The notes under the pieces were generated by a model that did not search any database, was not told where the DNA came from, and worked only from the letters and a program-made list of their open reading frames with translations. Positions 868 through 19,952 of a DNA stretch of 64,000 nt are shown here, one piece after another (position 1 is the first letter of the stretch; every line of letters starts with the position of its first letter). Both the position numbers and the translations under genes were made by a program. Where the stretch lies: positions 1 through 64,000 of the IMG/VR virus record IMGVR_UViG_3300033153_002993. The stretch is one strand, 5' to 3'. The stretch is from a virus.

Positions 868-2376
868 CTACAGGTTGTTGATCGTCAACTGGCCGTAGAA
901 GTCCGGGCGAAGCAGCTTCTTCGCGTAGCGGGTCCGGAGGCCCTTGCGGAAGCTGAAGTCGCTCGGATCGAGGAAGGTCGGCGTGACCTGGAGGGGCACG
1001 TAGGGCGCCCAGCAGTAGCCGGACTCCAGGAAGCTGCCGCCCTTCAGACCGACCATCATCTTGTTGGTCGTGAAGAAGGGATCTTCGTAGACGACCCACT
1101 TGTTCATGAGCGTCCCGGTCTTGTAGATCGAGAACTGCCCATGCGCCGTGCGCGGCCGAGGTACGTCGGTCGGCGAGTTCGGGTTCATGTCCGACGACCA
1201 GATCGGCTTGAAGTCGCCGTGCGTGGTCAACTGGGTCAGGAGCGCCGAGATTTCGGGGCTCGTGATGATCCAGTTCGCCGGGGCGCGGAGGGTTTTCTTG
1301 TGGATGAGGTTCGAGACGGTGCTGATCTGCGTGATCAGCGCTCGGATGTGGTCGATCTCCGAGATGCCACCGGGCGGGATGCGGTCGAACGTGCCGGTGG
1401 TCCCCGTCGAAGCCAGGAAGAGGTCGTTGATGATCTCGCGGTCGATCTCCAGCGCGATCTCCTGAGCGATGATCGACACGATCTCGGTCTCGGCGTCGAG
1501 ACCGTGGAACGCACGGAGGTCTTCCGCCGCCTCGCTCGACCACAGGGCCTTGAGTCGACGCGGCTTGGCCTCGACCGGCGCCTTCTTGATGTCGAGCTTG
1601 ATCTCGGGAACCTTGGTGTTGAGTTCCCCGTCGAAGTAGTAGTACGCCTTGACCTGGTTCCCGAGGGCGGGGATGTTCTGGAACTGGAACCCAGTCACCG
1701 CGCCGTTCGCGTAGTTGATCGAGCCTGAAGTGAGTCCACCGGCCGGGGTGAACGTGAAGCCGCCCGCCCCATCGTCGACGGCCTCCTGCACGGTCGACCC
1801 GTCCGCCGCCGAAACCTCCCGGATGGCGCACGAGAACTCACGAGCAGCATCGAGGGGCCGAACCGGGGTCCACGCGAGGGTCCCGGTGAGGTCGAGCGCA
1901 CCACCACCACCACCGAAGTTGACGCCATCGCCGGTCACCATCGACTCGCCGTTGACGTACTCGCTGGAGTAGTCACGATCGAAGTCACGTGGGAACACGT
2001 TCCCCTCGGTCGTGCCGCCCTTGGTCGAACCGTACACGTAGTCGAGGAAGAAGACAGCACCGATCGGGGCCGTCATCGGCTGGACCGAGACGATCTCGTT
2101 GGCGATGAGGTTCGGGAAAACTCGCCTCAAAACGGGGAAGATGAACTTGGTGAACGAACCGACGTTCACCGTGCGCGTCTCCTCCGTGAGAGACTGGAGC
2201 CAGAGGCTCTCGTTCTCCATGAGCATGGCGGTGCATCCGAGGATGTACCTGTCCTGCTCGGATCGATCGGCGAGGCCCTCCAGGAAGTCTCCCCACTTCC
2301 GGATCAAGGCCCCGACGTAGCTCTGGTCGGCGATCGTTCGACGACCCTCTTCCTGAAGCATCTGTCGAGCTTCCAC
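868..2376 (-). CDS. Major capsid protein, T4 gp23-like
   Basis: A 502-residue protein that forms the capsid lattice of the T4 type. Segments typical of gp23-like proteins are visible: RRVFPNLIANEIVSVQPM near residues 77-94, followed by GAVFFLDYVYG, and in the C-terminal third an acidic-aromatic segment around YEDPFF and GSFLESGYCWAPYVPLQ. Length is close to the T4 family norm. The start is GTG at 2376, chosen because AAGGAGG lies six bases upstream; no better ATG exists. It follows the prohead protease in the transcript, the same order as T4 21-22-23, and is followed by a terminator. N-terminal processing by the protease at 2435-4138 is expected from T4 biology but no site is proven here. Confidence 0.93.
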   Translation of the reverse strand: MEARQMLQEEGRRTIADQSYVGALIRKWGDFLEGLADRSEQDRYILGCTAMLMENESLWLQSLTEETRTVNVGSFTKFIFPVLRRVFPNLIANEIVSVQPMTAPIGAVFFLDYVYGSTKGGTTEGNVFPRDFDRDYSSEYVNGESMVTGDGVNFGGGGGALDLTGTLAWTPVRPLDAAREFSCAIREVSAADGSTVQEAVDDGAGGFTFTPAGGLTSGSINYANGAVTGFQFQNIPALGNQVKAYYYFDGELNTKVPEIKLDIKKAPVEAKPRRLKALWSSEAAEDLRAFHGLDAETEIVSIIAQEIALEIDREIINDLFLASTGTTGTFDRIPPGGISEIDHIRALITQISTVSNLIHKKTLRAPANWIITSPEISALLTQLTTHGDFKPIWSSDMNPNSPTDVPRPRTAHGQFSIYKTGTLMNKWVVYEDPFFTTNKMMVGLKGGSFLESGYCWAPYVPLQVTPTFLDPSDFSFRKGLRTRYAKKLLRPDFYGQLTINNL

Positions 2377-2434
2377 GGCTTGCCTCCTTAGTCTTTCCCA
2401 CGGCGGATCGTCGTCGCCCGCCAGAAGTTCTTTC

Positions 2435-4138
2435 TCAGTCTCGCAGTCCTGCCAGGTGTTTCAAGTCAGCCAGGGACGCTCCGAGACCATTGTAGTCCTT
2501 CGATCCACTACCACGCGGCCCAGAGGGTTGCGTGTCTTCTTCGAGATACTCCGCCCCACCATGCAGTTGAGCACGAACGCGAGCACGCACTGCTTCGAGG
2601 TCGTCCGCGTCGCGCTTCGGCTCACGGAAGTCCTCGATCAGTGCATCCACTTGCTCCTGGGACTGAAGCCCTGATCGTTCGAGCATGCGGAGGATCTTCG
2701 CACCTTGAGGGTGAGTTTGCAACCTCTTGGATGCGTAGACCTGTAGAGCCAGGTCCCGGTTGGCGACGAGGGCTTTCTCCAGCCCCTCCGCCAATGCCTG
2801 GTTCTTGCCGCGTAGACGATCAGATTCCTCCGACCGTTGTTGCTGCACACGCTCCTCTTCGATACGGAACGTCTGCATCTCCTGATACGCCTCTTCGACA
2901 CGAGTGCGAAGCGCATCCGGGGAGTCGTACTGCGAGACATCCCCAACGATCACGCGAAGCCGCTCGATCTCTGCGTCATCCTCATGGAGCAAGCACTCCA
3001 GGTGGTACCTGTAGCCTGCCTCCCGAGCCGCCTCGGTGAGCGTTTCGATCAGCGTCTCGTGCTGCTCGATCGTCTGCTCCACCTCTTCGAGCTTGGACCG
3101 GAGCGCGTGTATCTCATCGTCGCGCTCTGCGACCAGCGCGTGGGCATCCTCGGTCAGGGCGAACGGGAGCAACGCCCGCTGCACGTCTTCCAAGGCCGCT
3201 CTCGCACCTGCAACTGCGGGGTCCGCTGCCATCTCAGCGCGAACCTGCTTCTCGACGTCACCCCGGAGGGCAGCGATACGATCTACGATCTGGTCCGCAA
3301 ACTCCTGCCGGAGGTCTTCGACCGAGACATCGTTTCCCTCGGCGTCGGACAGAACCTTCGCGGCGAACCGCGCGGCCATCTCTGCCTCGGCGGACTTCGG
3401 CGCAGCGGCAGCCTCGGCAGCCACCTTCTCTCCGAAGCGCTTGGCCATCTCTGCCTCGCCCGGAGGTGCTGAACCTACGACAGGAGCGACGTTTTCGTCA
3501 TCGCCCTCGTCCTCACCCTCAGAAGCACCTTCCGGCTCGGCCGTCTCGAAGGCCACACCCTCGAACATCATGGCCGCGCCCTCTTCGGCGCTCTCGAAGA
3601 CCACCTCGGGATAGGCCGACGGGTCGGCTGGTTCAGCCACGAAATCGAAGGTGACGAGTTTGTAGTCCTCCTGGACTTCCTCGATGCCGTCCTTGCCCGG
3701 CTTGGTGCTCCCGAAACCACGGGAACTGATGCCCACCGGAACACCCGCCGCGAGGATCGCCTTCAGGTCTCGGCCCTTGGCCGTGTCGAGGATCTCGGCC
3801 TCACCCATCACCTTGTCGTCCTCCAAGCGGAGGCCGGTGATAACGTGCGAAGCGCGTTGCAGTGCCGTGCGCCCATCCGTGGGGTGGTCGAGTTCGCCCA
3901 GCACCTTTTTGGACTCCAGGTTCGACTGGAGGCGAGAGAAATTGTTCTCCCAGATGTTGTGCCGGTATCGGCGTCCGTTCGCTGTGGGGTTGACCGCATG
4001 GCCGAACTCCCCACGTGCAAACACGCGGCCCTTCTTCTCGCCTTCCCCCTCGACCAGTTCGAGCTTGCAGGGGTGAACCTGCTCGTCGATCAACTGGTTC
4101 TCGGTGGATGGGGAAGTCGCAGTCAATTGTCCCATCAT
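2435..4138 (-). CDS. Prohead protease (T4 gp21-like) fused to a coiled-coil scaffold-like region
   Basis: A 567-residue protein. Residues about 20-200 match the T4 gp21/S80 prohead protease type: a conserved GELDHPTDGR segment supplies the likely catalytic histidine and GVPVGISSRGFGS the likely serine. After residue about 200 the sequence becomes Glu/Ala-rich and strongly helical to the end (heptad-like stretches near 300-480), much longer than gp21 alone (T4 gp21 is about 212 residues). In T4 the scaffold gp22 is a separate gene; here protease and scaffold-like parts appear joined in one chain, as known in other phages. GGAAGG precedes the ATG, whose first bases overlap the stop of the 51-residue gene upstream. 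It acts inside the prohead before packaging. Confidence 0.87.
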   Translation of the reverse strand: MMGQLTATSPSTENQLIDEQVHPCKLELVEGEGEKKGRVFARGEFGHAVNPTANGRRYRHNIWENNFSRLQSNLESKKVLGELDHPTDGRTALQRASHVITGLRLEDDKVMGEAEILDTAKGRDLKAILAAGVPVGISSRGFGSTKPGKDGIEEVQEDYKLVTFDFVAEPADPSAYPEVVFESAEEGAAMMFEGVAFETAEPEGASEGEDEGDDENVAPVVGSAPPGEAEMAKRFGEKVAAEAAAAPKSAEAEMAARFAAKVLSDAEGNDVSVEDLRQEFADQIVDRIAALRGDVEKQVRAEMAADPAVAGARAALEDVQRALLPFALTEDAHALVAERDDEIHALRSKLEEVEQTIEQHETLIETLTEAAREAGYRYHLECLLHEDDAEIERLRVIVGDVSQYDSPDALRTRVEEAYQEMQTFRIEEERVQQQRSEESDRLRGKNQALAEGLEKALVANRDLALQVYASKRLQTHPQGAKILRMLERSGLQSQEQVDALIEDFREPKRDADDLEAVRARVRAQLHGGAEYLEEDTQPSGPRGSGSKDYNGLGASLADLKHLAGLRD

Positions 4139-4290
4139 GACACCTTCCAGCGGAAGTTGGACCGGAACGGCCCACGGTCCAGACTGGCGTCGGACCGTAT
4201 GCTCGTCTTGGGAAGGTCGACAGTGAAATCCAGCCCCGAACGCGATCCTCCTACGCTTCGAGTCTGACGCTTCACTGGACTCTTCTCCAT
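4135..4290 (-). CDS. Small basic protein, 51 aa, coupled to prohead protease
   Basis: An open frame of 51 codons, MEKSPVKRQTRSVGGSRSGL at the start and ...FRWKVS at the end, fills the gap between the acidic protein and the protease. Its TGA overlaps the protease ATG (TCATGATG), a translational-coupling layout, and a weak GGTAGGG lies directly before its ATG. It is rich in Arg and Ser. No family recognised. T4 has small core proteins (gp67, gp68) at the equivalent place between portal and protease; that similarity is positional only. Confidence 0.55.
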   Translation of the reverse strand: MEKSPVKRQTRSVGGSRSGLDFTVDLPKTSIRSDASLDRGPFRSNFRWKVS

Positions 4291-4382
4291 CCCTACCACT
4301 TCCCGTCTCCCCGAGGAATACGCTGTGCGACGACGCCGTGTTGTACGCCCCTTACGGAGGGCCAGCGCGCGGAGTCGTCGCC

Positions 4383-5294
4383 TTACCCGTTTCCCTCATC
4401 GCCCTCGTCCTGCTCCTCACCGTCGTCCTCGTCCTCGTCCTCGTCCTCATCGGCCTCCCGGAGGATGGCGAAGGTCTCCAAGCCCTGGAGGACCGTCGCC
4501 AGGTAGTCCTGGAACGTCTCCGTGAGGGCCTCGAAGTTGATCGTGTCGGCACTCTCGGTCTTGAGCGTGTCCACGATCGCTGCCGAGTACTGCGCGATGC
4601 TCTTGTACGCCTCGGCAATCTCCGCGTACTCGGCATCGTCCTGAGCCTCGGCGGTCTCGGTGAAGAAACCGTACAGCTTCTCCGAGATGAGCGCGAGGTT
4701 GGCGAACGCTGGGGTGGCCTCCTCCAGAGAGTCGGTCGGCCGCGCGTCCTCGTCCAGGATGGCCTCGATGGCGCTCATGGCCTCGGACACGGACTCGAAC
4801 GGGTTGGGGGCGTCTTCGCCCTCATCCTCGTCGTCGTCCTCGTCGATGGCCTCGTCCTCGTCGTCAGCGTCGATGGTCTCGTCGATGACACCGCCGGGGA
4901 GCGTGGTGGTATCCCCCATGCCCTCCAGAGCGGACATCTGCCCCGAGTCGAGATCGATCGTCTCGATGCCATCCTCACCGAACTCCTGCCACATCGCCTT
5001 CGCACTCTCGTGGAAAGCAACGGCCTCGGCCATAGCGACATCCTCGTCGGACTCGTCGGACTCGTCGGCCTCGTCGGCCTCGTCGGCCTCGTCGGAGTCG
5101 GGGCGGGCCTTGGAGATTGCCTCGTCCTCGTCGTCGTCGAAGTCCACGTCGTAATCGGACTCGTCGGTCTCCTCGGACTCGGACTCCGCAAGGACGTCCT
5201 CTCCCTCGCCGGGGTGATCTTCCTTGATGAGGCCAATGCGCCGGAAGTCCTCCTCCAGGGAGGTGATTACCACCGCGTGCCTGAGCAAAGTCAT
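4383..5294 (-). CDS. Highly acidic head-region protein with Asp/Glu tandem repeats
   Basis: A 303-residue protein, start chosen at ATG 5294 because AGGAGG lies four bases before it; the frame is open further upstream but would run into the preceding gene. Nearly every third residue is Asp or Glu. A short tandem repeat of Asp-Glu-Ala and Asp-Glu-Ser units lies near residues 70-85, encoded by 9-bp DNA repeats at about 5045-5100. The tail is again Glu/Asp-rich. Flanked by head genes between portal and protease, the place of the T4 prohead core genes. An internal core or assembly role is plausible; no domain recognised. Confidence 0.7.
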   Translation of the reverse strand: MTLLRHAVVITSLEEDFRRIGLIKEDHPGEGEDVLAESESEETDESDYDVDFDDDEDEAISKARPDSDEADEADEADESDESDEDVAMAEAVAFHESAKAMWQEFGEDGIETIDLDSGQMSALEGMGDTTTLPGGVIDETIDADDEDEAIDEDDDEDEGEDAPNPFESVSEAMSAIEAILDEDARPTDSLEEATPAFANLALISEKLYGFFTETAEAQDDAEYAEIAEAYKSIAQYSAAIVDTLKTESADTINFEALTETFQDYLATVLQGLETFAILREADEDEDEDEDDGEEQDEGDEGNG

Positions 5295-5304
5295 ACCATT
5301 CCTC

Positions 5305-6198
5305 CTAGCTGGCCTCGACCATTCTATTGGCCACCACCACGACGAAGCGGCCAGCGACCTCCCGATCGTGCAACCCTCCGACGAGCGTGTCGCAGAGTCT
5401 ACCACGGGAGCGGATATCGTCTACCGCCTCAATTGCGTGGGAGCCTGATTCATGGATCGCACAGAGGTCGGCGAACAGATCGTCAGCAAATCGAGCAAAC
5501 ATATCAGCGATAGGCCCGGTGGACTCGGAAAGGGTAGTGGTCGCTACTGCCAACGCTGTCCCTACCTCGTCTCGAATCTGACCCAGCCTGTCAATCACGA
5601 TCCTCAGACCTTCTGTCACGCGATCCTCGTAGGCACTGAGTTTGCCCTCTTCGATCGCCCCATCATACAACTTACCGAACTTCTGGCGCAACCGGCCTTC
5701 TTCGAGAGCCTCCACATCGCCCTCGATGAAGCCGAGAATGTGGTCCTCACGCGCCTCGAAGAGCCGCCTCCACGGTCGCGGGGCCGCTATCATGCCCTCG
5801 ATCTTTGCAACCTTGCCGCCCGAGACACGGGTCTTCGGAACTAGATTCTCCAATCGGGACACAGCGGATTTCATCTCGCCACGAAGGAACAGGTCGACAA
5901 CAACGCCGGCCTCCCTCCCCACGAAACCGTGCATGCTTGTCATGTCGAATACCTCGACATCGAGGTCCGAGAGCGTCGGGCCATCCTCGGTCAACTCCAC
6001 GCGAACGTACTTCCCACCGGAGTACACCACAGCCCCGTACTCCTGCGTCGCCACCACCTCGAAAGGAACGTCCCCAAGGCCCGCACGGACCGCTCGGGCG
6101 ACCTCCTCGATCTTTACCTCGTAGCTCCCTGACCGAAGACGCCGCAATTCGGCATCCGGTAGGAGTTTGTTGGGGCTCTCGATCATCTTGGGCGACAC
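5305..6198 (-). CDS. Hypothetical protein between portal and protease
   Basis: A 297-residue protein with a mixed alpha/beta N-terminal part (residues 25-110, including VPFEVVATQEYGAVVYSGGK and a beta-rich VRVELTEDGP) and a helical C-terminal half. I recognise no family. It is followed 10 bases later by the acidic protein. The product may take part in capsid assembly given its neighbours; the sequence gives no catalytic motif. Confidence 0.7.
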   Translation of the reverse strand: MSPKMIESPNKLLPDAELRRLRSGSYEVKIEEVARAVRAGLGDVPFEVVATQEYGAVVYSGGKYVRVELTEDGPTLSDLDVEVFDMTSMHGFVGREAGVVVDLFLRGEMKSAVSRLENLVPKTRVSGGKVAKIEGMIAAPRPWRRLFEAREDHILGFIEGDVEALEEGRLRQKFGKLYDGAIEEGKLSAYEDRVTEGLRIVIDRLGQIRDEVGTALAVATTTLSESTGPIADMFARFADDLFADLCAIHESGSHAIEAVDDIRSRGRLCDTLVGGLHDREVAGRFVVVVANRMVEAS

Positions 6199-6237
6199 TA
6201 GCTGTTCCTCGAACCGTCTGTCAAACGAAAGGTAGAC

Positions 6238-8034
6238 TCAGCGGCCATGCGCCGCTGCCACGACCTCTCGGAGAAGCGCCACGCTCTCCCGCAAGCGTTG
6301 GCTGTTCGCACTGTTCGACCGGAGGATGCTGTCCAACTTTCCCTCGGCCCGCTTCTCGGCCTCGCGATTCCCTCTTAGAAGCTCCTTCTCGGTGATAGCC
6401 CCACGCAACTGACGGGGTATCGCAGCGATCTTGCGTTCGAGCCTCCGCATACCCGAAGGGGCTGCGAGCGACTCCACGCCACCGCCACCACCTCCACCTC
6501 CACCCGATGCCTGCTCTACCGAAGCCTGCGCCATGGCGCTCATCTTCTCGACCTCGGCCTGAGCCTTGCCCTCTCGGATCACATCCTCGGACCGCTCTTG
6601 AATGATGAGTTTGATGTCCTCGTCCGATAGCTGGTAGATGTTCTCCAACACCCACCGCAGCGAGACATGCTCGCGCATACGCGAAGCCAAGTCAGCCCGC
6701 GCGTTCCGTACCTCCAACTGAGCCAACTCGAAGATGGCCGAAGGCACGGTCATGTGGATGGTGTAGTCGCTCGCGTAGGGGTCGATATTGAGCGCCGCCA
6801 GGTGCGTCCGGGCCACCTTGCGAAGACCGTTGCGGACCTCCCGCTGGACTCGCAAGACAGACCGTGCGAACCGGACATCCTCGCTAGAGAGGACCGCTCT
6901 TGCCGTGTTGTCGTCCTGAGCCAGGTACGCCTTGGGCACCTTCATTGCGGTGAACAGCTTCGTCTGGAAATACTCTACGTCGTCCATGTGCTGCCAGGAC
7001 GGGCCGCCGAGTACCTCGATCCGCGTACCCTCCACACCCTTACGCACCGGAACCCAGAAGTCGTCATCCTGGGACAGCGGCTCGAATTTCATATCGAGTT
7101 TGCCGGTAGACGGGTTGACGAACCGCTTCTTCTTGTGCTGCTGCCGGATCTTGTTGACGAACGCCAACGCCTCGGCCGGAGGTAGATCGCCGACGTCGAC
7201 ATAGAAGGCGAAGCGCTCGGGCGCTCGCTGGAGTCGATAAATCATCGCGGCATCTTCGAGCAGCATGAGCCGCTTCCATATCCACCGTGACGATTCGAGG
7301 ACCGAGTAGCCGTACACGCTCCGGCGGTGCTTCCCGCGCAAGCGGAAGTGCGACACCTCCCAAGGCTCCAGCGCAGAGACGCGCTGTAGCATGTTGCCCG
7401 GGGGTCGAGCGGCGCCCGGCTGCGTGACCTGACGGATAGCGTCCGTGCGCTGGGTTAGGATCTTCTGAAACTCCTGCGGAGAGTAGCCGAACCGGCCTTT
7501 GAAGTCCTGGACGAACCCGTACAGTTCCCCACGAGGGCCTTCCACCCGGCGCACAGTCGGCGCCGGAAGGAAGTTCAAGCCGACCACGCCATCCTGATTG
7601 ACGAGCAACTCTTCGTAGTCGTTCCCGTACTTCACCAGGGAGCGCACGATTTCCCAGATTTCCTCGTCCAGGCGGAGCCGCTTATGGAACAGATCGTCGA
7701 GCACGCCCTGAAGGGTCTTGTCCGGACTGGACACCCACACGGTGCGCTGGAGTTGCGTGTCCGGCTGTGAGGCGTCGTCCGCGTAGATGTCGATGGCCGA
7801 CGAGACCTCGGGGTAGTCGTCCATCTCCTCGTAGTCGACATAGCGACTGAGGAGATCGTGCTCCAACCGGAGATAGTCCGACAGAGCATCGTAGCCGTAG
7901 GCTTGAAGCAGGTCGTACCCAGAGTCCGGATACGTTGGAGAGGTGCTGCCCTTGGCGAGTAGTTGCCCTCCCCGTTCCTTATCCGAGACAAACGCACCAC
8001 GCAGGCGATCAACAACATTCTGTACAGCGCCCAC
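6238..8034 (-). CDS. Portal protein, T4 gp20-like
   Basis: A 598-residue portal subunit, expected to form the dodecameric DNA channel at one capsid vertex. Typical gp20-family segments: YEEMDDYPEVSSAIDIYADD near residues 68-87, EEIWEIVRSLVKYGNDYEEL near 127-146, the segment KVPKAYLAQDDN and the C-terminal helical region around LRWVLENIYQLSDEDI. A poly-Gly run lies near residue 520, then a short tail. Its ATG overlaps the stop of the upstream gene (8034), so the two are coupled. Gene order terminase, small gene, portal, core genes, protease, capsid mirrors T4. Confidence 0.92.
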   Translation of the reverse strand: MGAVQNVVDRLRGAFVSDKERGGQLLAKGSTSPTYPDSGYDLLQAYGYDALSDYLRLEHDLLSRYVDYEEMDDYPEVSSAIDIYADDASQPDTQLQRTVWVSSPDKTLQGVLDDLFHKRLRLDEEIWEIVRSLVKYGNDYEELLVNQDGVVGLNFLPAPTVRRVEGPRGELYGFVQDFKGRFGYSPQEFQKILTQRTDAIRQVTQPGAARPPGNMLQRVSALEPWEVSHFRLRGKHRRSVYGYSVLESSRWIWKRLMLLEDAAMIYRLQRAPERFAFYVDVGDLPPAEALAFVNKIRQQHKKKRFVNPSTGKLDMKFEPLSQDDDFWVPVRKGVEGTRIEVLGGPSWQHMDDVEYFQTKLFTAMKVPKAYLAQDDNTARAVLSSEDVRFARSVLRVQREVRNGLRKVARTHLAALNIDPYASDYTIHMTVPSAIFELAQLEVRNARADLASRMREHVSLRWVLENIYQLSDEDIKLIIQERSEDVIREGKAQAEVEKMSAMAQASVEQASGGGGGGGGGVESLAAPSGMRRLERKIAAIPRQLRGAITEKELLRGNREAEKRAEGKLDSILRSNSANSQRLRESVALLREVVAAAHGR

Positions 8035-8414: not shown

Positions 8415-11400
8415 TCAGTCGCCCCAATCGCTTCCAGAGCCTACCAGAAACGGAGGCAAAGCCGTACTCTCCGACATATCCGAGGTGTCCTCGCTCCCGT
8501 AGCTCCTCGCCATCGCCGCTTGCTGGTGCTCCTGCATCCACGCATCCCCGTTCTGCGGAACGCTGCGGAGGATGGGGAGAGGCAGTGCGGAGGAGTTTTC
8601 AGTGAGCGTCCACATGACCCCGGCCGCTGCGTCTGAAATATCCTTCGAGCCACGCAGCGGGTGGTCCACCTTGTGCTTCATGCGGTCGTGCTCGACCTCG
8701 CGTAGCTCCCGAAGGAGAGGCTCGTATTCGTAGTAGTAGATGCGGTCCTCGTAGAGGCCCGTCTTCAGAAGGTCGTAGGGTCCCATCGTCCTGTCGATCG
8801 ACAACTGGATCGCGTTGAAGCCTCGCTGATTCAACTTCTGGATCGCGTCGGCGGAGTTCCACGAGTCGATCGACACGCAGGTGATCATGTACCCGTGCTT
8901 GCTCAACTGGTAGACGAGTTTTCGTATCTCGCCGAGGACGATCTCCCCTCCGATAGGCGGGACGATCTTCAAGAGCACGTCGAACGTGATCTCCGGAGCA
9001 CGCTCGGGGTACTTGTTCCCCTCGTCGTCCCTCCGGACGACCTCACGCCAGCCTGAGATGTGCCCCATGGCGAAGCCTGTGGAGTCGCCTGTCATCGACG
9101 GGTCGATGTGGATGTGTCGGGGAGCGTAGGGGCTCAGGATGGGCCTGTTGCCGCCCTCGGCGTCCGAAGCAGCCCGCAGCATCTTGTGCCAGTAGAACCT
9201 CCCCGGCTGCGAGGGGTCGTACACCTCCACGCTGAAAGGGTGCTTCATGCCCGGACGGATGGCTTCAACGATCTTGGTACGGCGTTGGATGTAGGGGCTC
9301 ACGGAGACGGTGGCCACGCCCGCAAGGTCCCGGATGGCCCCTTCCAAGTCTTTCTCGAAGTCTACTCGGAAGTCCTCCGGAACTTCGATCACAACGCAGT
9401 CCTCGGGGAGCAGCACCCTCACCTCATCGAGGTCTTCATCGACCTCGATGATTCGACTGGGAGCTTGCTCGTTCCCCACCACCACATGGAACCAGTCGTC
9501 AGAGTAGTAGATGTCCGGCTTGACGTCCCAAAGAGCGTAATCCCGCACGAACACTGTCGGGTCGAGAATCGACTCTTTGACCCGCTTGGCCGTGAAGTCA
9601 TCGTTGGTCTGCTTCGAGGAGACGACGAACAGAATGCCGGGCAGCCGTCCCTTGCGCTCGAACCTGGACTTCATCCGGCGCTGCATGGCGTTGTACAGCA
9701 CCTCGGCCCGGTCCTGAAGGTTGAACCTCGGGTCCTGCCCCTTGCTCGCCTTGGGCATGAAGTTGGTGTTGTGGACGAGAACCCCGTCTACGACGAAGCA
9801 CTCGTACCCTGGGACCGAAACGTCGTAGGTAGGCTGCACTCCCACGTCTCTCTTGGACACGACGCGGGCCACAGAAAGCTCTCGTCCCAGACTACGTACT
9901 CCAAGCCGTGCTCCTCGCAGTAGCGCCGCGCGGCACCCATCTTGAGCTTCTCCTTCCAATGGTAGGTGAAGCCCCGGGGCTTGACCTCGATCACACGATC
10001 CCTGTCGCCCCAGACTCGAAAGTCCGGCACCGTGCGGCGGGTCGTCCCGTTCAACGAGTAGGAGACCGCCAGCTTCTCGTACTCGAACCGCGTCACAGAG
10101 GAGTCCGCCTCCAACAACTCGATGGCTCTCAATTCGTACAGACTGCGGAAACCGACACGCCCTGCCTTGGTCGTCTGCGCCCAACCCAAGTAGCGGAAGT
10201 CCCCCTTGCGGAGTTTCCAGATGTTCGATTCGGAGATCTTCTGTTTGGTCTCCTCGGTGTGCTTGAACTTGCCCTTGCGCTCCCGGTTGCGTTCGGCCAG
10301 CGCGTCCTTGAACTCTTGTGAGTGGACCGGCTTCCCGGTCCGCTGCTCGGACATGCGCTTGCGGTCCTCGTCCGACCACCGCCTGCCTCTGCTCACTTCG
10401 CCTATGCGCTCTTTCTGCGAGTCGGAGAGCCGCTTCCCATACATCGGGTTGTCGGTCCCCTCCATCGGAGGCGGAACAAAGCCCCGTCCCTCCGCGTGCA
10501 TCTGCCGCACCGCCGAAACCTGCCTCTCGCGACCCTCGGGTGACATCTCCCGGTCCTTGTATCGTCCCTCCGCCCACAGAGCCTTCATCCGCTCCGAATG
10601 AGCTTTCCGGCGCTCCTCCGTCCATCGGGGCATGAACCACAACCTCCTGCCCGTCCAGGATAGCGCCCATTACGTTGAAAGTGAAGGTGCCGTCAACCTG
10701 TCGAACTGCAACAGGGTGATCGGCCGACCCGCGCATCACTCCACCGTTATCCAACTCCAACTCGTAACACGGCTGCTCCGACGACCATTTCACGAACGCC
10801 TGTGCTGGCACAGCGTGACCTAGCTCGAAGTCGAACGTCTCGACCACCACATCGGTCCGACCGACCAACGTCTCCACACGAGCCTGTTTACCATCCCCGA
10901 GCAGCACCAGCGACCCGACTGGCACACATTCATCCAGCAAGCCTCCAATAACATTTAGCCCCAAGACCGAGCCGTCGTTGCTCGCACGCGCGGCCACCCA
11001 CACCTTGCGTGGGAAGCGAAGTTCCTTCTTTGTCTTCTCGAACGGGAAGTTTTCCTGAAAGTAGGGGCTCGCCTCGATCTTGGTAGCGATGTTCTCGTAG
11101 GCGACCTTGGTGGCCAGGATCTCGTTGACCGAGAGGCAGACGATCGAGATGTTCGAGTTGGCTGCGATTCCGAAAGAACGGTGGGGGTCCCGCATGCAAC
11201 TCAGGATGTACAGAAGCCGGCAGATGCCGATGGACGCAGCGAAGGTCTTCCCCCACCCGATCGCGCCCGTGAGGACCGCCTCCCGATAGCCCTCCTCGAA
11301 CAGCGCGGTGATGTCCTCCAGGAGCCTCGGGTACAGGTTGTCGCAGGTGTTCCCGAGGTAGTACGGGTCCATGCAGAAAGTTTGCATGTCCACCGGGGTG

Positions 11401-11591
11401 CGTAGCCACTCCAGGTTGCCGATGGTCTGGAGGAGCCCGGCAGACGCGGCGGGGTCCGCTAGCTCGGCCATGAGAACCCCGATCGTCTCGCGCTCCTCGG
11501 AGGTGAGGGTCTCCAGGTCTCTCTCCAGGAGCCCGGTCCCCTCCTGCGGCGTCCGCACTGACCGCCAGTGGCCATTCTCGTACTCGATCAT
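8415..11591 (-). CDS. Terminase large subunit with an inserted intein
   Basis: A 1058-codon frame. Without its intein the product is 671 residues: packaging ATPase plus nuclease. N-extein residues 1-221 contain Walker A GAIGWGKT (109-116) and end in the Walker B motif NVIGGLLDE. The intein follows directly, then the C-extein resumes TNFMPKASKG. The C-terminal nuclease has HIHIDPSMTGD, CVSIDSWNS and DISDAAAG acidic clusters, as in phage terminase RNase H-like nucleases. Splicing is needed to join Walker B to the rest of the ATPase. Residues about 323-575 of the open frame look like a frame shadow (Gly/Arg-rich) because the endonuclease is encoded there in another frame. ATG 11591 lies ten bases past the upstream stop. 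Confidence 0.9.
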   Translation of the reverse strand: MIEYENGHWRSVRTPQEGTGLLERDLETLTSEERETIGVLMAELADPAASAGLLQTIGNLEWLRTPVDMQTFCMDPYYLGNTCDNLYPRLLEDITALFEEGYREAVLTGAIGWGKTFAASIGICRLLYILSCMRDPHRSFGIAANSNISIVCLSVNEILATKVAYENIATKIEASPYFQENFPFEKTKKELRFPRKVWVAARASNDGSVLGLNVIGGLLDECVPVGSLVLLGDGKQARVETLVGRTDVVVETFDFELGHAVPAQAFVKWSSEQPCYELELDNGGVMRGSADHPVAVRQVDGTFTFNVMGAILDGQEVVVHAPMDGGAPESSFGADEGSVGGGTIQGPGDVTRGSREAGFGGAADARGGTGLCSASDGGDRQPDVWEAALRLAERAHRRSEQRQAVVGRGPQAHVRAADREAGPLTRVQGRAGRTQPGAQGQVQAHRGDQTEDLRIEHLETPQGGLPLLGLGADDQGRACRFPQSVRIESHRVVGGGLLCDAVRVREAGGLLLVERDDPPHGAGLSSLGRQGSCDRGQAPGLHLPLEGEAQDGCRAALLRGARLGVRSLGRELSVARVVSKRDVGVQPTYDVSVPGYECFVVDGVLVHNTNFMPKASKGQDPRFNLQDRAEVLYNAMQRRMKSRFERKGRLPGILFVVSSKQTNDDFTAKRVKESILDPTVFVRDYALWDVKPDIYYSDDWFHVVVGNEQAPSRIIEVDEDLDEVRVLLPEDCVVIEVPEDFRVDFEKDLEGAIRDLAGVATVSVSPYIQRRTKIVEAIRPGMKHPFSVEVYDPSQPGRFYWHKMLRAASDAEGGNRPILSPYAPRHIHIDPSMTGDSTGFAMGHISGWREVVRRDDEGNKYPERAPEITFDVLLKIVPPIGGEIVLGEIRKLVYQLSKHGYMITCVSIDSWNSADAIQKLNQRGFNAIQLSIDRTMGPYDLLKTGLYEDRIYYYEYEPLLRELREVEHDRMKHKVDHPLRGSKDISDAAAGVMWTLTENSSALPLPILRSVPQNGDAWMQEHQQAAMARSYGSEDTSDMSESTALPPFLVGSGSDWGD
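9768..10928 (-). other. Intein in terminase (387 codons), inserted after Walker B
   Basis: Begins with Cys-222 of the terminase frame (CVPVGSLVLLGDGK) and ends ...VDGVLVHN before Thr, matching intein blocks A and G with Cys1 and terminal His-Asn and a +1 Thr nucleophile. Block B is visible as a segment ending RGSADHPVAV (TxxH-like). The C-terminal splicing block F/G is YDVSVPGYECFVVDGVLVHN. Only about 100 N-terminal and 32 C-terminal residues look like splicing domain; the 250 codons between are open but appear noncoding in this frame and overlap the endonuclease gene. Confidence 0.88.
9788..10633 (-). CDS. Homing endonuclease nested out of frame inside the terminase intein
   Basis: A 281-residue protein read +1 relative to the terminase-intein frame. 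ATG 10633 (MPRWTEERRKAHSERM) has AGGAGG nine bases upstream, a near-ideal ribosome binding site lying inside intein codons. Residues about 35-125 carry NUMOD3-like repeats (NPMYGKRLSD, RRWSDEDRKRM, GKFKHTEETKQKI) typical of homing endonucleases that bind DNA modularly. Residues about 145-250 hold a PD-(D/E)XK nuclease core: SLYELRAIELLE, TVPDFRV, RVIEVKP. The frame continues to 9788, overlapping the intein C-terminal splicing block. It should promote spread of the intein. No fusion to the splicing domains is possible without two frame changes. Confidence 0.85.
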   Translation of the reverse strand: MPRWTEERRKAHSERMKALWAEGRYKDREMSPEGRERQVSAVRQMHAEGRGFVPPPMEGTDNPMYGKRLSDSQKERIGEVSRGRRWSDEDRKRMSEQRTGKPVHSQEFKDALAERNRERKGKFKHTEETKQKISESNIWKLRKGDFRYLGWAQTTKAGRVGFRSLYELRAIELLEADSSVTRFEYEKLAVSYSLNGTTRRTVPDFRVWGDRDRVIEVKPRGFTYHWKEKLKMGAARRYCEEHGLEYVVWDESFLWPASCPRETWECSLPTTFRSQGTSASS

Positions 11592-18758: not shown

Positions 18759-19952
18759 TCACCCTAGTGATCGGCACCCGACTGCGTTGGACACCTGCTC
18801 GGGGCACTCCGGCTGGGGGCCGGGGTCCTTGCCCTTGTCTTTCTCGTATGCCCACTCGGCAATCTTCGCCTGGGTCTTCTCGATCTCTTTGCGGTTGGCG
18901 TCGACCTTCTTCTTCTGCTCTGACGTCCGTGGCTTGAACACGTCGTGCGACCACTCCGCCATCTCGTGCTGCCGGCGCGTCCGGACCTGGATCTCTTTCT
19001 CCAGGCCGTCTTCGTCCTCCACGATCAGGTGGTGCGATCGGTAGCTGCCCTGCGGGTTCGAGATGTAGTCCCGCTCCGCCTTCACCTTGAACTGTTTCTT
19101 GATCTTCCCGACGGAGCGCGTCACGTCGTCTAGGCTGTCGTGGATGATCCGGTAGCCTGTGCCGTCCTGCACGTCATCCGCCTTTTTGAACCAGTGCGGC
19201 TTGGTAGCGATCTTCCCGAGGACCGAGCCGAGAGTTTTCACCCGGCCCTGGACATTCGCGCCACCCCCGGCCATCTCCTCCAGCTTCGCGCCGAACGCGA
19301 CCACACCCTTCCTATGCGCGTCCACGACGCCACGGGCCTGGTCGATGTGGTCCTGAATGTCCATCCCGGGAGCCAACTCGCCGCTTCCGACCATCCCATT
19401 CAGTCGCGTGATCGTCTCGGCCATTATCTCCGCGCCCTCGGCGGCGGGCTCCGTGCCGGGTATCTTCTGCCAGGTGCCATCGCGCAGCTTCAGGTAGGAG
19501 CCGTCGCTCCACTGGTGGACCTCGCCAGGCTTGGCTTTACGGCCCTCCTGTATCTCAGCCCCGTACTGAATGGCGAGGGCCTTGGAGATCGAGTCGATGT
19601 CCCCCACCCCGGTCTCCTCCGAGGCCGTCATCCAATCGTGCCAGTAAAACTCCTGCAAATCGCCATCCGAGTCGAACGGCAGGTGGGAGGAATCGGAAGG
19701 GTTCATCCCCTTCCACAGGTCCAGCGTCAGAGGCTCGAAGGTGGCTGGGCCGTCCTTAGTCACCACGACGACCTTCCCACCCTCCCCCTCGAACGTGTCG
19801 CCTCGGAGGATGCGTTCCGGATGGTCTGGAGAGGTGCGACGGACCCACCACCCCTTCCCCGCAGGGAGCGGCACAGGAGCCATGACGATCTCGGGGTGAG
19901 CCGGGTCGCTCCCGAGCCTGAGTTTGTAGACGGTGTTGAAGTCCAGTGACAT
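18759..19952 (-). CDS. RelA/SpoT nucleotidyltransferase-domain protein
   Basis: A 397-residue protein. Residues about 235-345 show the (p)ppGpp synthetase fold signature: RVKTLGSVLGKIA (basic substrate helix), QDGTGYRII with the DxxGxR motif (Asp-263, Arg-268), DYISNPQGSYRSHHLIV (ATP/GDP-binding segment) and EIQVRTRRQHEMAEWSHD with Glu-320. These catalytic residues appear intact. Residues 1-130 are unknown; 135-170 is a Gly/Trp-rich motif. It lies one base after the 1687-residue gene and shares its message. Related phage and toxin-antitoxin enzymes make alarmones or transfer pyrophosphate to tRNA; which applies here is open. Confidence 0.8.
   Translation of the reverse strand: MSLDFNTVYKLRLGSDPAHPEIVMAPVPLPAGKGWWVRRTSPDHPERILRGDTFEGEGGKVVVVTKDGPATFEPLTLDLWKGMNPSDSSHLPFDSDGDLQEFYWHDWMTASEETGVGDIDSISKALAIQYGAEIQEGRKAKPGEVHQWSDGSYLKLRDGTWQKIPGTEPAAEGAEIMAETITRLNGMVGSGELAPGMDIQDHIDQARGVVDAHRKGVVAFGAKLEEMAGGGANVQGRVKTLGSVLGKIATKPHWFKKADDVQDGTGYRIIHDSLDDVTRSVGKIKKQFKVKAERDYISNPQGSYRSHHLIVEDEDGLEKEIQVRTRRQHEMAEWSHDVFKPRTSEQKKKVDANRKEIEKTQAKIAEWAYEKDKGKDPGPQPECPEQVSNAVGCRSLG

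Follow-up and report, generated by a model that had tools for sequence, protein, structure and literature searches.

A putative mobile intein in a phage terminase gene with a homing-endonuclease gene nested out of frame

Endonuclease genes inside self-removing elements and genes nested within other genes are both known, as in group I introns with internal endonuclease open reading frames (ORFs) and in nested phage genes such as phiX174 E in D. Among inteins, fractured genes carrying split inteins together with free-standing endonucleases were reportedly described by Dassa and colleagues in 2009. In the methylases of ShiLan and Pacc40 (gp60), out-of-frame nested HNH genes lie in open insertions that carry no splicing motifs, and no ribosome-binding site was detected for the nested nuclease of ShiLan (Arsenault et al. 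2025, PMC11855218). The present analysis concerns the terminase large subunit gene (terL) of a virus of bacteria, located in positions 1-64,000 of the record IMGVR_UViG_3300033153_002993 (the window, i.e. the whole 64,000-nucleotide stretch that was analysed). The insertion found in this gene is probably a mobile terL intein, composed of a contiguous cis-splicing HINT intein whose middle also carries, in another frame, a free gene for a homing endonuclease.

Layout of the element and signatures in both frames

The first-pass annotation of this DNA had placed a terminase intein (9768-10928) in one frame and an endonuclease at 10633-9788 in the +1 frame, with AGGAGG nine bases before its ATG, and these coordinates were found to be exact by comparison with the ORFs and with empty sites. 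The features of the element are the following:

8415..11591, minus strand: terL ORF, 1058 codons, in one frame through the intein (ORF list, translation, intein-less terL relatives)
10929..11591, minus strand: N-extein, with the Walker B end ...GGLLDE (90% identity to intein-less contig L003)
9768..10928, minus strand: putative intein, 1161 bp and 387 codons, Cys1 to Asn387, followed by Thr (exact insertion relative to empty sites; Pfam and TIGR intein matches)
10626..10928, minus strand: predicted intein N-terminal splicing region, residues 1-101, with blocks A and B (AlphaFold predicted local distance difference test (pLDDT), HINT fold matches, alignment with other terL inteins)
9888..10625, minus strand: predicted intein linker, residues 102-347, a stop-free shadow of the nuclease gene (mostly pLDDT <50, shadow codon composition, stop-avoidance tests)
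9768..9887, minus strand: predicted intein C-terminal splicing region, residues 348-387, with blocks F and G (pLDDT about 88-95; TIGR01443 above cutoff)
10643..10648, minus strand: Shine-Dalgarno sequence AGGAGG, with a 9-nt spacer to the nested ATG (sequence; rare among ATGs)
9788..10633, minus strand: nested homing-endonuclease gene, 281 amino acids, +1 to the intein frame, ATG at 10633 and TAG at 9788 (translation, Pfam domains, codon-position composition)
10208..10633, minus strand: nuclease residues 1-142, helical putative DNA-binding part with a NUMOD3 motif (Pfam NUMOD3 at 123-137; helices in the model)
9869..10186, minus strand: nuclease residues 150-255, TnsA-like PD-(D/E)XK core with E167, D204, E216 and K218 (alignment, pLDDT, Foldseek)
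9788..9868, minus strand: nuclease tail, residues 256-281 and stop, out of frame over the intein C-terminal region (homology ends near 255; low pLDDT)

The insert lies directly after the "DE" of Walker B. In the viral contigs L003, L005 and L010, terminases about 91% identical read LNVIGGLLDE/TNFMPK without interruption (the slash marks the insertion point), and because these intein-less relatives read straight through the site, the boundaries of the intein are fixed. The insert carries Cys1, a block B SADHPV with the block-B His and a C-terminal VLVHN/T, and it is matched above cutoff by TIGR01443 (intein C-terminus). In an AlphaFold run made together with eight other terL inteins, pLDDT was mostly 77-96 over residues 1-101 (65 in one block) and about 88-95 over residues 350-387, while it was <50 over most of residues 102-347, and Foldseek matched the model with Hedgehog and intein HINT structures. 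The two ends are thus predicted to form a HINT splicing domain, and the 246 residues between them look like a disordered linker. By its precise insertion, splicing residues and predicted HINT fold, the insert would make a good intein. A group I or II intron was also considered and rejected, since no Rfam intron match was obtained at the insertion.

The product of the nested gene (P0001) has NUMOD3 and Tn7 TnsA-like N domains, both above Pfam cutoffs. Its residues E167, D204, E216 and K218 are the expected PD-(D/E)XK catalytic residues and are the same in all 15 sequences of an alignment with relatives. The model shows a core at 150-255, with pLDDT >90 over most of it, for which Foldseek returned the TnsA structures 1t0f (E 3e-6) and 1f1z. 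Homology to the relatives stops near residue 255. Residues 259-281, which come from translating the intein C-terminal region in another frame, are predicted to be disordered (pLDDT 31-36 over most); judged from this sequence, the original stop codon of the nuclease has apparently been lost. The nested ORF is an intact gene of the TnsA-like/NUMOD3 homing-endonuclease type, whose product would cleave site-specifically and promote homing. AGGAGG at 4-12 nt precedes 1.1% of all ATGs in the window. RNA folding near the nested start codon was unremarkable and no sigma-70-like promoter was found. With the nuclease as query, tblastn gave nothing in phage records at 1e-5 and distant matches only at a looser limit.

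Ribosomes starting at terL would read through the element and produce a precursor of 1058 residues. The intein, 387 residues made up of the splicing domain and about 246 residues of meaningless linker, would then splice itself out in cis. Other ribosomes would initiate at AGGAGG-N9-ATG inside the intein to produce the separate TnsA-like nuclease, which would cleave terL alleles lacking the intein, at their Walker B codons, leading to the copying of the whole element (homing).

The open intein frame across the nuclease gene

Over the overlap, the guanine-plus-cytosine (GC) content at the three codon positions is 0.57/0.49/0.82 in the nuclease frame, which is phage-like, and 0.84/0.59/0.46 in the intein frame, which is that of a shadow. 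The nuclease frame is therefore the coding frame over the middle of the intein and the intein frame is its shadow, as the first-pass annotation had suspected when noting that the latter stays open all the same. There is indeed no stop in the 255 codons of the intein frame across the nuclease gene, where 7.5 stops are expected by phage codon usage (P 0.0005), 5.7 by permutation of the nuclease gene's own codons (P 0.0005) and 6.4 when codon usage takes the following base into account (P 0.0012). A conservative estimate, based on how often T occupies stop-making wobble sites across the phage, gives P 0.009 for the open frame. Within the nuclease gene itself, T is found at 0/55 stop-making wobble sites and at 20/125 other sites (Fisher P 0.0004). 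Such an open intein frame along the nuclease gene exceeds what chance would give, yet is not astronomically rare, and selection has probably kept the shadow frame open.

The proposal that one DNA segment serves both as linker of a splicing protein and as a separate nuclease gene is supported in both frames, but the double duty is lighter than was implied. On the intein side, the 246-codon predicted disordered linker would need only to be free of stops, and on the nuclease side, the C-terminal overlap would encode a tail of some 25 residues that is predicted to be disordered. The same phage is represented by a second contig, of 184.7 kb. Between this contig and the window, one 20-kb stretch shows 4 single-nucleotide polymorphisms (SNPs) and another stretch shows 6 SNPs together with a 43-nt indel, but the element and terL are identical. 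Since a contig that differs elsewhere has an identical element, compensating assembly indels, which the first-pass annotation had named as a refutation, are unlikely.

Several observations weigh against the interpretation of a spliced intein under selection in two frames. Among 296 overlapping 256-codon windows taken from other phage genes, 16 (about 5%) are open in the same shadow frame, and the stop-avoidance test is based on one sequence. Two scans of genome contigs returned no relatives, and no diverged homologue of the element was found. The Pfam Intein_splicing match to the insert (E 3e-6) is under the gathering score, and block F (YECF) is without the usual His, which leaves splicing efficiency uncertain.

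Related elements and rival explanations

Relatives of the nuclease are found in fractured split-intein genes. In the T4-like phages HY03 and PspYZU05, terL consists of two ORFs with a related nuclease between them; the first half ends with IYIDE/CVAKDT... and a short N-terminal intein half (IntN), while the second starts with the rest of the intein. The nuclease of the window shares 30% identity with that of HY03 (E 1e-11). In Shewanella phage Thanatos-2 (terL) and Krischvirus TB34, TerL-IntN and the nuclease form a single in-frame fusion, and the C-terminal intein half (IntC) with the terminase C-terminus forms a separate overlapping ORF (L033, L034). Other host genes of these split inteins are uvsW or a uvsW-like helicase gene (S16, PM2, L023 and a Lak phage), phoH (CPt10) and a clamp-loader gene (LR756500), and in all these cases, terL included, the insertion follows the Walker B DE. 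By BLASTP, the terminase of the window has no significant match with T4-like gp17 (hhalign profile E 0.48), and the equivalence of the T4 gp17 site with the window site would rely on the Walker B motif alone.

IntN and IntC are in one frame and the nuclease in another, as in the window, in 5/10 compared cases, but with 17-55 stops in the spacer. Among 80 further viral loci, many of them near-duplicates, three cistrons are present in about 68 and an IntN-nuclease fusion in 2; a nuclease nested in an unbroken intein is seen in 0 of these 80 and in none of the viral scans with nuclease alignments. The GC content of the 80 loci is 27-46%, compared with 62% for the window. Seven automatic "contiguous" calls (L181-L186, L188) were discarded, their IntN match being a chance one (E 0.04-0.6) downstream of the nuclease. 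In the loci L018, L019, L023 and L107-L111, a TnsA-like nuclease lies between split-intein halves, always after the Walker B DE/C. In the records such halves are entered either as separate genes, for a helicase or a terminase, or as a disrupted pseudogene.

Within the terminase family, about a dozen inteins are present at other sites (P-loop, about residues 152, 364 and 594) among 58 terL loci. Their endonucleases, where recognisable, are in frame and of the LAGLIDADG or HNH type, and one case is a mini-intein. In this set, only the phage of the window has an intein at the Walker B DE, and its nuclease is the only one out of frame. No intein was found that occupies this site and has this nuclease in frame at both of its ends. 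Endonucleases in frame with the intein in related phages, which the first-pass annotation would have taken as a refutation, were encountered only in other inteins, at other sites and as unrelated nucleases. The first-pass view that in-frame endonucleases are the rule and free nested ones rare agrees with these other terL inteins, but the fractured genes and ShiLan make the case less isolated than was then supposed. One terL (L087) contains two inteins, at 1316-2500 and 3329-4363 (P-loop region and about residue 364).

Every close architectural relative being fractured, the halves of the present intein could be made separately as well, IntC with the terL C-terminus being produced also or only from its own start near 9890 and joined in trans, with an accidentally open spacer frame. 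GTG codons do exist near the start of the C-terminal region, but no strong Shine-Dalgarno sequence is seen by eye before them, the N half has no terminating stop, so that translation must continue into IntC, and the chance of such an open frame is about 0.001-0.009; this arrangement is therefore considered unlikely. The in-frame fusions of Thanatos-2 and Krischvirus, together with a nuclease frame that is open for 12 codons upstream of the ATG, would rather suggest a programmed +1 shift near 10670-10634, by which the nuclease would be made as an intein-N fusion and not from its own start. This is very unlikely, as the Shine-Dalgarno sequence 9 nt before the ATG has the spacing of initiation, no obvious slippery +1 motif is visible by eye, and the start of the nuclease resembles that of free-standing relatives.

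The missing stop codon of the nuclease, which runs into the intein C region, is what would be expected of a former in-frame endonuclease domain brought out of frame by two indels, either in nature or in the assembly, and would point to decay or error instead of a working design. The same sequence is nevertheless present in the second contig with its SNPs elsewhere, the nuclease retains its catalytic residues and an intact codon usage, and a well-placed Shine-Dalgarno sequence and ATG stand exactly at the nuclease start, making such an origin very improbable. Finally, the insert could be kept in the terminase, or terL be inactive, as proposed for the ShiLan domain; insertions of that type, open and without splicing motifs around out-of-frame nucleases (PMC11855218), and the absence of the block F His would agree with this. 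Splicing residues and a predicted HINT fold are nonetheless present, and keeping an insert immediately behind the Walker B Glu would very probably be lethal in a motor that is essential, so that this explanation is the most improbable of all.

Other observations were made in the window and in related phages. A T4-like head module at 871-8034 (minus strand) encodes Gp23, an S77 prohead protease and a T4 portal, the latter with a poly-Gly tract near its C-terminus. Portal-protein genes of the related phages L007, L011 and L014 contain inteins, apparently with in-frame HNH-type endonucleases in L007 and L011, the one in L014 being cut by the contig end. A phage gene with a RelA/SpoT domain lies at 18759-19952 (minus strand; Pfam E 1e-18) and possibly encodes a nucleotide alarmone enzyme. 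An Rfam match to the Tymovirus tRNA-like element at 9362-9445 (plus strand), antisense to terL, reaches 26.5 bits for a gathering score of 40 and is almost certainly due to chance.

Comparison with known systems

Ordinary large inteins, with their in-frame LAGLIDADG or HNH nucleases, share with the window a HINT domain and the placement of the nuclease-coding DNA where endonucleases are usually inserted in inteins, but their nuclease is within the intein polypeptide, whereas that of the window is not part of it. Group I introns likewise harbour a free endonuclease gene inside a self-removing element, and phiX174 E in D is likewise a nested gene with its own Shine-Dalgarno sequence. Unlike in group I introns, removal would here take place at the protein level, which requires that no stop interrupts the host frame along the nuclease gene. 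ShiLan and Pacc40 gp60 also have an endonuclease out of frame inside an insertion that is open in the frame of a phage host gene, but they show an HNH nuclease, no intein motifs or splicing and no detectable ribosome-binding site, where the window has an intein, a TnsA-like nuclease and a strong Shine-Dalgarno sequence. No description of a contiguous intein with an out-of-frame nested endonuclease was found in the literature searched, a relevant 2025 actinophage-intein preprint lying outside that search. Out-of-frame nested nucleases in non-intein insertions and fractured genes are thus known already, and what would be new, as judged from sequence, is such a nuclease in an unbroken intein. Annotation that assumes in-frame endonuclease domains would miss nested genes of this kind.

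For the origin of split inteins with free-standing endonucleases, the layout of the window is what would be expected of a step between ordinary and split forms. If the present interpretation is true, it would show a route to split inteins: once an out-of-frame nuclease had established itself in the linker, the host gene would stay whole in GC-rich genomes, while in AT-rich ones it would be fractured and trans-splicing would be forced. It also makes testable the tolerance of inteins for a long meaningless linker and the ability of stop avoidance alone to prevent gene fracture. At 62% GC the shadow frame would be able to stay open, while in an AT-rich phage the gene would be interrupted immediately by a nuclease lying out of frame, and the finding of fractured genes in AT-rich phages fits this scenario.

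The closest comparison is with the fractured split-intein genes. These have, like the window, a nuclease of the TnsA-like PD-(D/E)XK family with zinc-finger or NUMOD parts, the Walker B DE/C position, and a nuclease in its own frame between the intein halves with a 3' end overlapping IntC. Their host gene is however in separate ORFs and requires trans-splicing, whereas terL of the window is one unbroken ORF. By analogy, the element looks like the unbroken counterpart of these genes, and we hold it an even question whether a contiguous cis-splicing intein with a separate, internally initiated nuclease gene represents, with stops selected against, the unbroken form that stands between ordinary inteins and the fractured genes with split inteins.
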